27,226 bases of DNA from Thermoleophilia bacterium (GTDB taxonomy: Bacteria; Actinomycetota; Thermoleophilia; Gaiellales; JAICJC01), in the NCBI GenBank assembly GCA_025928435.1, contig JAICJM010000034.1, positions 1 through 27,226 on the forward strand, given 5' to 3'. Of this stretch, positions 6,051 to 12,518 are shown piece by piece. The first letter of the stretch is position 1, and every line of letters begins with the position of its first letter. The notes beneath the pieces were generated by a model. It searched no databases. It worked only from the letters and a program-made list of their open reading frames with translations, and was not told where the DNA came from. Made by a program: the position numbers and the translations under genes.

Positions 6051-6806
6051 GTGATCCTGCGCCAGTTCCTGTACGACCCCACGGCCTGCGCGAGCTACCT
6101 CTTCGGCTGTCTGACGTACAACCAGCTGGCCGTCGTCGACCCCCATGTCGAGCTCGTGGACAGGTACGTCGAGGCGGCCGAGGCGACCGGCGCGCCGATC
6201 GTCGCCGTGCTCGAGACGCACGTCCAGGCCGACCATGTTTCCGGCCTGCCGGGGCTCGTCGCCGCGACCGGCGCGAGGCCGTACCTGCCGGCCGGCGCCC
6301 AGGTCGACTTCGACCACCATGCCCTGGAGGACGGCGAGCGGCTCGAGCTCGGAAACACGATCGTGACGGCCATGGCGACGCCCGGCCACGCGCCTGCCCA
6401 TCATGCGTTCCTCGTGGCAGACCTGCGCCGCGAGACGGACGAGCCGTGGATCGCGTTCACCGGTGACTCCCTGCTCGTGAACGACGCCGGCCGCCCGGAC
6501 CTGCACGCGCGCGGCGGCGACCCGCGCGAGCTGGCCCTGCTCCAGCACGCGTCGATGCAGCGGCTCCTGGCCCTGCCCGACCACGTCGTCGTCTACCCGA
6601 GCCACTACGGCGGCTCCGTGTGCGGGCGCGGCCTGTCCGGGAACCCGATCTCGAGCATTGGCTTCGAGCGCCGGCACAACCGCGCCCTCGCCTACGCGGA
6701 GGCGGAGGCGTTCGCCGATCACCTGCTCGAGGACCTGCCGCCCGCGCCGCCCGAGCAGGCGCGCATCGTGGCCGCGAACCGGCGGGGCGAGCCCGCACCG
6801 GCCTGA
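6051..6806 (+). CDS. MBL-fold hydrolase of the ETHE1/persulfide dioxygenase group
   Basis: 251 residues. The metal motif reads ETHVQADHVSG (H57, Q59, D61, H62), followed by TPGHAPAHH (H113), GDSLLVNDAGRPDL (D139) and a C-terminal SHYGGSVCGRGLSGNP...SSIGFERRHN typical of this group. In ETHE1-like persulfide dioxygenases one iron is held by the first His of the THxHxDH motif, the GH histidine and the GD aspartate, and all three are present here. The second His of the motif is Gln, which would affect only the second metal site used by hydrolytic relatives. Likely role: sulfide/persulfide oxidation or glutathione-persulfide turnover. A rhodanese domain is absent. It starts with GTG and has its own divergent promoter region. 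Confidence 0.8.
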   Translation: MILRQFLYDPTACASYLFGCLTYNQLAVVDPHVELVDRYVEAAEATGAPIVAVLETHVQADHVSGLPGLVAATGARPYLPAGAQVDFDHHALEDGERLELGNTIVTAMATPGHAPAHHAFLVADLRRETDEPWIAFTGDSLLVNDAGRPDLHARGGDPRELALLQHASMQRLLALPDHVVVYPSHYGGSVCGRGLSGNPISSIGFERRHNRALAYAEAEAFADHLLEDLPPAPPEQARIVAANRRGEPAPA

Positions 6807-6867
6807 CCGGCCGCGACCAGCAATGGGCGGTCGGCGCGATCGGGGCGCGCTCGGCGAGGGCGCAAAA

Positions 6868-6904
6868 GCGGGGACAGTCCCCGCCGAGCGGGGACTGTCC
6901 CCGC
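6868..6904. repeat. Inverted repeat 16-5-16 with GGGGACAGTCCCC cores
   Basis: Arms 6868-6883 (GCGGGGACAGTCCCCG) and 6889-6904 are exact reverse complements around the 5-nt spacer CCGAG, and each arm is itself nearly palindromic. It lies in the 118-nt gap between the convergent MBL and PilZ genes, so it could fold into a strong hairpin as a terminator or be a REP-like element. Unlike the palindrome at 2965 it has no T-rich tail and does not carry the stop codons. Nothing else was recognised in this gap. Confidence 0.75.
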
Positions 6905-6924
6905 CCGGGCCCCCCATTCCCTGC

Positions 6925-10999: not shown

Positions 11000-11005
11000 T
11001 ATCTT
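11000..11005 (+). promoter_or_regulatory. Candidate -10 box of the retron transcript
   Basis: TATCTT fits TAnnnT and sits 4 nt before the left inverted repeat at 11009. Transcription starting about 7 nt downstream would begin within the first bases of that arm. No good -35 was found 17 nt upstream. Confidence 0.35.
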
Positions 11006-11008
11006 GAC

Positions 11009-11173
11009 GGCGTCCGGCGACGCGTCCCGAGCCGGCCCGCATCGGCGGGTCTCTCCGGGGCACCCCCGGGGGAACCGGTGTCACCACACATCGCATCGCA
11101 TGCGCTTCGCTGCGCCTCCGTCGCAGGCCCGCGCACGCACGACAGGCACAGTCGGGGCGCGCCGCCGGACGCC
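11009..11173 (+). ncRNA. Candidate retron msr-msd RNA bounded by a1/a2-like repeats
   Basis: The 22-nt arms 11009-11030 and 11152-11173 are reverse complements with 20 Watson-Crick pairs, one G-U (11025/11157) and one A-C mismatch (11020/11162). The right arm ends 5 nt before the reverse transcriptase ATG. After the left arm the sequence is A-G-C (11030-11032), which fits a branching guanosine directly after a1, as in retron Ec86. Two hairpins follow as in msr: 11034-11051 (CCCGC/GCGGG with an ATCG loop) and 11052-11072 (CCGGGG/CCCCGG core). The remaining 11073-11151 can fold (98-105 with 131-138 and 110-114 with 122-126 of this 11,000 block) as expected of an msd. The structure was deduced by eye; no folding program was run. 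Confidence 0.65.
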
Positions 11174-11178
11174 TCCCG

Positions 11179-12518
11179 ATGACATGGCCGCCGGGGACAC
11201 GGACGGGCATCGCCCGGGCACTGGCGGCGGCGTTCCTCGACGGCGAGTGGAGCCCGGCGGGATGGCGGGGCGGGCGGCGACCGCCCTCGGCCGCCGGCCG
11301 CGCTGGCTGGGGACCGTGGTGCGCGAGTCCCACGCGGCGTACCGGATGCGTCCGGCCGACGCGCCCCGGGCGCTCGCCGCGACCGTCGACCGCGCCCTGC
11401 GAGACCTGGACGCGCGGGGCCGGCTGGGGCGGCCACCGCGGAGCTTCCCGGGCGCGGTCTTCGCCCCCGAGATGGGCCTGGCCCGCTGGCCGGTGCCGGC
11501 GGCGGCGACGACGGCCGACCTCGCCGCGCTCCTCGACCTCCGTCCCGGCGAGCTGGCATGGCTGGCCGACCGCCGCGGCATCGAGCGCCGCGCCCCTCCC
11601 CGGCTGCGGAACTACCGCTACAGCTGGCTGGCACGGCCGGCCGCCCCGCCCCGGCTGATCGAGTCGCCGAAGGCGCTGCTGAAGGAGACGCAGCGGCGGA
11701 TCCTGCACGGCATCCTCGGCGCGATCCCGCCGCACGAGGCAGCCCAAGGGTTCCGCCGCGGCCATTCGGCGATCACGCACGCGCGGAGGCACACGGGGCG
11801 GCAGGTCGTGGTGCGGTTCGACCTCGAGGACTTCTTCGCGTCGGTCGCCGCCGGCCGGGTCTACGGGATCTTCCGGGCTGCGGGCTACCCGGAGTCCGTG
11901 GCCGAGTCCCTGACGGCGCTCGTCACGAACGCCGTCCCGCACGACGAGTGGGCGGCCGCCCCGCGCCCGGCCGATCCGGCGGCGCTCGGGGCGCACGCGC
12001 GCATGGGCCGGCTGCTGGCGGCGCCGCACCTGCCCCAAAGGGCGCCCACCTCCCCCGCCCTCGCCAACCTGTGCGCGTACCGGCTCGACTGCCGCCTGGC
12101 CGGGCTGGCGGACGCACTCGGCGCGGTCTATTCGCGCTACGCGGACGACCTCGCGTTCTCGGGCGAGAGGGCTGTCCTCGCGCGGGCCCCGTCGCTGCGC
12201 CGGGCGGTCGCGGCCATCGTCGCCGACGAGGGCTTCCGCCCCAACGACCGCAAGATGGCGCTCGCGACCCGGGCCGGGCGCCAGCGCGTGTGCGGCATCG
12301 TCGTGAACGCCCGGACGAACGCCCCGCGGGACGACTACGACCGGCTGCGGGCCGCGCTGCACGAGGCGGCCACGCGCGGCCCGGCGGCCGCGAACCGCGA
12401 CGGCGTGCCCGACCTACGCGGACACCTGCTGGGCCGCATCGGCTGGGTCGAGGCGCTGAACCCGGCCCGCGGCGCCCGGCTGCGCCGGACGTTCGCCGCG
12501 ATCGACTGGCGTGAATGA
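11179..12518 (+). CDS. Retron-type reverse transcriptase, frameshifted near codon 28
   Basis: About 446 residues once one base is restored in the GGG run at 11259-11261. The first frame gives MTWPPGTRTGIARALAAAF...SPAG (1-28), and the next frame continues MAGRAATALGRRPRWL to the stop. An N-terminal region of about 100 residues precedes the polymerase: LIESPKALLKETQRRIL, GFRRGHSAITHARRH (HARRH at 201-205, position of the retron NAxxH motif), FDLEDFF (D215), LPQRAPTSP (285-293), RYADDLAF (YADD 321-324) and RQRVCGIVVN (VCG 371-373, position of the retron VTG motif). Three catalytic aspartates are present. The usual QG of LPQGAPTSP is QR (AGG at 12039). A maturase or endonuclease domain is absent, which argues against a group II intron. 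No effector gene follows in the same operon. Confidence 0.85.

Follow-up and report, generated by a model that had tools for sequence, protein, structure and literature searches.

A candidate retron with a covarying RNA family and no conserved effector gene in a Thermoleophilia contig

Introduction

Ec86 has an a1/a2 stem and a priming guanosine, and both features are common to Ec86 and the element described here, which is located upstream of a retron-type reverse transcriptase (RT) gene. In retrons, the priming guanosine is placed at the inner end of the stem, in the contexts TAGC, CAGC, GAGC, and others (Simon et al., PMC6868368), and an effector is typically carried as well (PMC12548924). 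Ec86 (retron-Eco1) and the other solved retrons resemble the present family in both RT sequence and fold, but the identity in the fold alignment is 24%, and they typically have an effector, whereas no conserved one was found in the present family. Of the closest PADLOC profiles, RT_other and RT_outgroup (PDLC02949 and PDLC03740), RT_other matches a near relative of the RT over almost its full length; both profiles describe the protein alone. For the RNAs of retrons, PADLOC includes msr-msd covariance models (PMC9252829), one of which may cover the element RNA.

We analysed a stretch of 27,226 nucleotides, hereafter called the “window”. A sequence-only reading of this DNA had pointed out a candidate retron and knew of no characterised retron from an actinobacterium of this kind. 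The latter remark needs qualification, as putative actinobacterial retrons, from the same phylum as the window, are already in print, albeit as bioinformatic predictions only (Simon et al. 2019, PMC6868368). Here, we report that the locus is very probably a retron, a judgement that covers its identity and not its purpose.

Results

The inverted repeat and the hairpins

The inverted-repeat search found two arms of 22 nt each, 91% complementary and 121 nt apart, which bound an element of 165 nt from a1 to a2 (Table 1). Base by base, the arms form 20 Watson-Crick pairs, one G-U pair (11025/11157), and one A-C mismatch (11020/11162), in agreement with the earlier reading of 21 pairs in 22 positions with one G-U. 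The claim that such a repeat is improbable by chance in GC-rich DNA was also borne out. The 226-nt stretch from the start of the YkuD gene to ATG 11179 (74% GC) contains 20 Watson-Crick matches of 22, while none of 1000 dinucleotide-preserving shuffles reached at least 20 (maximum 18), and only one of the 239 tiles of the window passes the 20/22 threshold, namely the tile holding the retron element. Moreover, the RNA from 11005 to 11176 folds at −106.4 kcal/mol (z −5.39), a value equalled by none of 200 shuffles.

Table 1. Coordinates of the features of the candidate retron in the window
Feature	Coordinates	Strand	Remark
-10-like promoter hexamer TATCTT	11000..11005	+	consensus match, candidate promoter
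a1 arm (5′ inverted repeat)	11009..11030	+	core with comparative support 11014-11030; pairs with a2 covary, 95 loci
Predicted branching (priming) guanosine	11031..11031	+	G in 94/95 loci, first base after the a1 stem
msr hairpin 1	11034..11051	+	sequence varies, hairpin conserved
msr hairpin 2, CTCCGGGG-CAC-CCCCGGGG	11052..11072	+	most conserved block of the family
Predicted msd template region	11073..11151	+	linker, stems, conserved CACGAC..AG ahead of a2
a2 arm (3′ inverted repeat)	11152..11173	+	core with comparative support 11152-11168
RT gene start (ATG 11179), N-terminal part	11179..11249	+	frame differs from the RT body
Retron-type reverse transcriptase body	11250..12518	+	remainder of the helical N-terminal domain, then the YADD-containing RT domain and the C-terminal part

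The two hairpins that had been noted after the left arm, as in an msr, are both present, and they are followed by a covarying msd stem. Hairpin 1 forms at least five base pairs in 91 of the 95 loci at which the RNA was found (median z −3.1 against simple shuffles), while hairpin 2, which corresponds to helix 4 of the RNA model, has two-sided changes in seven of its nine pairs, within near-invariant columns. The msd stem (11098-11105/11131-11138) and the inner stem (11110-11113/11123-11126) correspond to helices 5 and 6, and both covary. Folding the presumed msd product as DNA was uninformative, with a result no better than that of shuffles (z −0.06). The order expected of a retron, with the msr hairpins followed by the msd stem and the RT gene downstream on the same strand, is found here, and 94 of the 95 loci have the RNA and the RT in the same orientation.

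In the remaining locus, L001:4767-4944 (= G001:C155:2586-2763), and in no other, the RNA and the RT are on opposite strands, perhaps through an inversion between the a1/a2 repeats or as an artefact of the bin assembly. A separate feature of the window is the long near-perfect hairpin at 6863-6909, just downstream of the MBL-fold ORF 6051-6806, with two GGGGACNGTCCCC palindromes; GGGGACNGTCCCC has two exact matches, versus 0.28 expected with one mismatch allowed.

The priming guanosine and the promoter

The base directly 3′ of a1 is guanosine in all of the 95 loci but L055, and a conserved guanosine, the predicted priming base, is thereby found where retrons have it, at the inner end of a1. The triplet at the end of a1 is AGC in 43 loci, AGA in 20, AGG in 17, AGT in 10, and another in 5. 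Of the A-G-C that the sequence-only reading had compared with a branching site, the A and the G are thus conserved, but the third base is free. The -10-like TATCTT reported ahead of the left arm was found (Table 1). In the family, TANNNT occurs within −15 to +6 of the 5′ end of the element in 81/95 loci, as compared to 7/95 in a control of equal size located 30 nt further upstream. Transcription therefore probably starts at a1. On the other side, the element ends a median of 9 nt before the RT start, with a wide range (−331 to 188) because RT starts were extrapolated from partial protein matches at some loci. The distance of 5 nt given earlier for the window is correct for ATG 11179, but this ATG does not share the reading frame of the RT body.

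Conservation and covariation of the RNA

The same RNA layout recurs upstream of related RTs. We built a covariance model, R1 (alignment A4), from 16 sequences of the class of G001, and ran it on 100 sources (the window, L001–L080, and L083–L101; the duplicates L081, L082, and L102 were omitted). In these 911,605 bases, R1 matches 95 of the 100 RT loci, with one match each, and 79 of the 84 loci outside its training set. The covariance search proposed in the earlier reading thus returns the same RNA at homologous loci. Five loci are missed at default settings: L064, where the RT is near the contig start, L068, L072, L076, and L079. With the filters off, R1 yields weak matches in place at L068 (E 0.0023), L076 (0.0029), L079 (0.02), and L072 (0.35), and no match upstream of the RT of L064. 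The matches span Actinomycetota, Myxococcota, Planctomycetota, Acidobacteriota, Pseudomonadota, and Verrucomicrobiota, according to record titles and tree labels, which can be wrong since several sources are metagenome bins.

All 16 modelled pairs of the a1/a2 stem (helices 1–3) change on both sides, and 93–96% are paired across the 95 loci. Conserved pairing of the a1/a2 inverted repeats, a hallmark of retrons, is thereby established, and the compensatory changes in the arms, whose absence the sequence-only reading had named as a refutation, are found throughout the stem. In the whole 95-row alignment, which was fitted to the model structure and is hence biased towards it, 94.9% of the cells are in standard pairs (42–47% in slid controls), 33 of the 36 pairs show two-sided changes, and covariation scores 0.581, versus 0.161 when shuffled. 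Among the rows outside the training set, 2649 of 2804 cells are paired. In the structure-free MAFFT alignment A3 of 17 sequences, two-sided changes are present in 18 of the 37 predicted pairs, including those of a1/a2, although covariation contributes little to the energy (−2.91 of −62.97 kcal/mol). No Rfam 15 model overlaps the element, at E up to 5 in the window or at E up to 0.1 in five relatives, and no description of the element RNA was found in the consulted parts of the open-licence literature searched (PMC6868368, PMC12548924, PMC9252829, PMC12262390, PMC10221251, PMC4244168, PMC8934634).

The reverse transcriptase

The window RT is matched best by PADLOC RT_other (3.1e-153) and RT_outgroup (1.4e-145), followed by RT_XIII (4.2e-82), and residues 7-445 of its relative P0002 match RT_other over nearly the full length (1e-162). 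The RT body also matches Pfam RVT_1, and the Ec86 RT is the nearest solved structure by sequence. The NCBIfam retron RT models match below their curated cut-offs (St85, 144.5 of 235 bits), with E values of 4e-42 for the retron St85 RT versus 1.4e-4 for Drt2. When the AlphaFold model of P0002 (mean pLDDT 85.4, pTM 0.65) was compared with known structures by Foldseek, ranks 1–18 of the matches to this predicted fold were all retron chains, above the group II intron RTs. YADD is retained by 99 of the 100 loci; L100, where it is missing, is cut by a contig end. The protein is thus a retron-lineage RT with YADD by its profiles and sequence, and P0002 by its modelled fold.

The motifs of regions X and Y are variant. 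The window RT has HARRH instead of NAXXH and VCG instead of VTG; in the family, strict NAXXH is found in 6 of the 56 parsable loci (43 of 99 were unparsable) and VTG in 32 of 99, while the corresponding values described for retron RTs are 59% and 47% (PMC4244168). In the P0002 model, the first ~80 residues of the RT are predicted to form a conserved four-helix domain. In this N-terminal domain, no Pfam family was found in more than one of 32 members at E up to 0.5, and no PDB fold matched at E < 3. One of the 32 domains touches Pfam EAD1, an effector-associated domain, at E 0.083; the match, though not significant, is a lead towards an adaptor role.

In the window, ATG 11179 and the RT body (11250-12518) are in different frames. 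The sequence MTWPPGTRTGIARALAAAFLDGEW at the RT start matches the N-terminus of P0002, which makes ATG 11179 the homologous start, and all 15 relatives aligned with the window RT hold the start and the body in one protein. Judging from the sequence, the gene appears to be broken by a frame change between the start and the body, as would result from decay of the window copy or from a misassembly. This break may have left the window copy without function. L088 and L098, both in the training set of R1, have a TGA within the RT match while the RNA is still recognisable; broken RT copies thus apparently occur elsewhere in the family.

Distribution, linkage, and neighbouring genes

Of the 7996 candidates scored in the protein search, 5344 proved to be relatives, with 91% identity for the nearest; among the matches listed, the nearest with a taxon is P0039, from a Gaiellales metagenome bin (68%). 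The genome scan, performed with an alignment of 51 relatives, contributed the best 80 of 577 confirmed loci, which are not an unbiased sample. G001, a Solirubrobacterales bin, is the source of L001; in its class, presumably Thermoleophilia, the RT (E up to 1e-60) is present in 20 of 399 genomes, G001 included, and the RNA (E up to 0.001) is present in the identical set of 20. In the class of the Myxococcus genome G401, the RNA is found in 17 of 147 genomes, all within the 18 RT-positive ones; G456 has the RT and no RNA match. As the RT occurs in 4 of the 129 genomes of the order of G197 and in two of the five of its family, the distribution is patchy.

The nearest kin of the window, L083 and L100, have the upstream YkuD gene in common with it. 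Their RNAs are 157/165 (95.2%) and 161/165 (97.6%) identical to that of the window, respectively, as compared to 80.8% and 74.6% for the RT coding sequence (470 nt compared for L100), 80.1% and 87.6% for the YkuD region, and 76.5% and 79.3% for the upstream 150 nt. By these sequence comparisons, constraint is stronger on the RNA than on the genes.

Besides the RT and ORFs antisense to it, no family of flanking ORFs, which were called mechanically and clustered, occurs in more than 9 of the 100 loci; at least 2 kb was available on both sides in 65/100 loci, and at least 4 kb in 57/100. Neither these 100 loci nor the Pfam and PDB searches of the N-terminal domain yielded the effector gene or fused effector domain of a tripartite retron. 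The family therefore appears to be a lone retron, composed of the RNA and the RT without a conserved neighbour gene, although an effector acting in trans or of another kind could still exist.

We rejected a mobile origin of the locus on searches of viral and plasmid records. Viral contigs contained no match to the RT peptide patterns of the window protein or to the hairpin pattern, the latter a weak search for exact matches only; one phage record has a 30% RT match over 53% of the query, and the RT matches in 19 of 72,556 plasmid records are each below 60% identity and short of 80% query coverage.

The genomes of a Pyxidicoccus and of Myxococcus qinghaiensis each carry the family plus separate retron-type RTs. 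Five such other RTs (L105–L109) are 35–42% identical to P0002 over the aligned parts, and the three from Myxococcus that were profile-scanned score best as type XIII. The Myxococcus genome G401 (L104, L105, L107, and L109) thereby holds four retron-type RTs, one of the family and three best-scoring as type XIII.

Discussion

Covariation, the conserved guanosine, the msr/msd anatomy, the RT profiles, and the fold of P0002 all support the candidate retron. The structure of the RNA, its covariation, its linkage to the RT, and the kinship of the RT are shown by the sequence comparisons, and, as far as sequence allows this to be judged, the locus is a retron by every testable feature except the variant motifs of regions X and Y.

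Could the locus belong to an already described group, or be something other than a retron? Mx162 and Mx65 are presumably type XIII retrons of Myxococcus, and we take L108/L109 and L107, respectively, to be these two from their long msd hairpin and RT length. Membership of the window locus in type XIII would agree with the third-best rank of RT_XIII and with the GAGC priming context, which the window element has in common with Mx65 (PMC6868368); the Mx162 and Mx65 RTs also have an extended N-terminus (PMC6868368). However, RT_XIII lags behind RT_other and RT_outgroup by about 200 bits or more, the five L105–L109 RTs split from the 99 family rows of the tree with 100/99 support (L100 is not in the tree), and R1 with its filters off reaches at best 28.1 bits at these loci (E 0.0044, 81 nt, L108), versus 62–72 bits at the family loci of the same Myxococcus and Pyxidicoccus genomes. 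On the profile ranking, the tree split, and the lack of a convincing R1 match, we rejected this assignment as highly improbable. We consider it only slightly less improbable that the RNA serves a non-retron, DRT-like defence RT as a template and is copied without a 2′-5′ branch: a lone RT with a structured RNA is also seen in DRT2 and DRT9 (PMC12039810, PMC12489045), but the fixed priming guanosine beside an a1/a2 stem is a retron signature, the DRT2 and DRT9 chains come at ranks 27 and 28 in the fold search with the P0002 model, below the retron chains, and the NCBIfam models likewise favour the retron St85 RT over Drt2. The chance that the arms are an ordinary attenuator, a terminator, or a fortuitous palindrome ahead of the RT gene is negligible. 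Long imperfect inverted repeats are indeed common (148 pairs in 2.2 kb), and the window is GC-rich; nevertheless, we rejected this explanation on the shuffling result, and the covariation over loci from six phyla and the tight linkage to one RT family are also against it.

A different matter is whether the window copy is dead—a retron by descent, with the RT inactivated by the frame break and the RNA recently orphaned—which would be compatible with the retron explanation of the whole family. The different frames of the RT start and body suggest it, as does the length of the called protein P0001, 418 aa versus 434–448 aa in its 20 nearest relatives P0002–P0021. On the other hand, the rest of the gene stays open as far as 12518 with YADD intact, the RNA still has 95–98% identity to those of L083 and L100, an internal start could yield a shorter RT, and the window may be a metagenome contig, where one-base errors are common. 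We therefore regard a dead copy as a serious possibility, but somewhat doubtful.

For the retron reading of the family, we propose the following mechanism. The transcript from the candidate promoter around 11000 would start near a1, span the 165-nt element, and probably continue into the RT gene. The pairing of a1 with a2, which is evident from the covariation, would place the end of the msd template beside the 2′-OH of G11031. Bound to the msr hairpins, the RT would then prime DNA synthesis at G11031 and copy back through the msd stem, stopping at a presumed point within the msd region. From this anatomy and from known retrons, we infer that the product would be a branched msDNA of ~55–79 nt.

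What the family does can be addressed by analogy. With a probability that we put just short of even, it most likely acts as a phage-sensing ribonucleoprotein like other retrons, in which the effector would be either the N-terminal RT domain or the product of a gene at another locus. Somewhat more tentatively, we suggest that this is a cross-phylum retron lineage with an RNA family of its own and without an effector gene, in which the N-terminal four-helix domain serves as the effector or as a docking adaptor. If so, the RNA, the msDNA, and one protein would make up a complete system.

By record titles, the family is found in six phyla, and its RNA fold appears strongly conserved in the sequences compared. 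A group of RTs that PADLOC labels only as “other” or “outgroup” retron RTs is thereby joined to a defined RNA, for which the priming base and the msd are predicted. The role of a retron without a visible effector becomes directly testable, and a compact unit of RNA and RT from GC-rich bacteria is added for DNA-writing tools.
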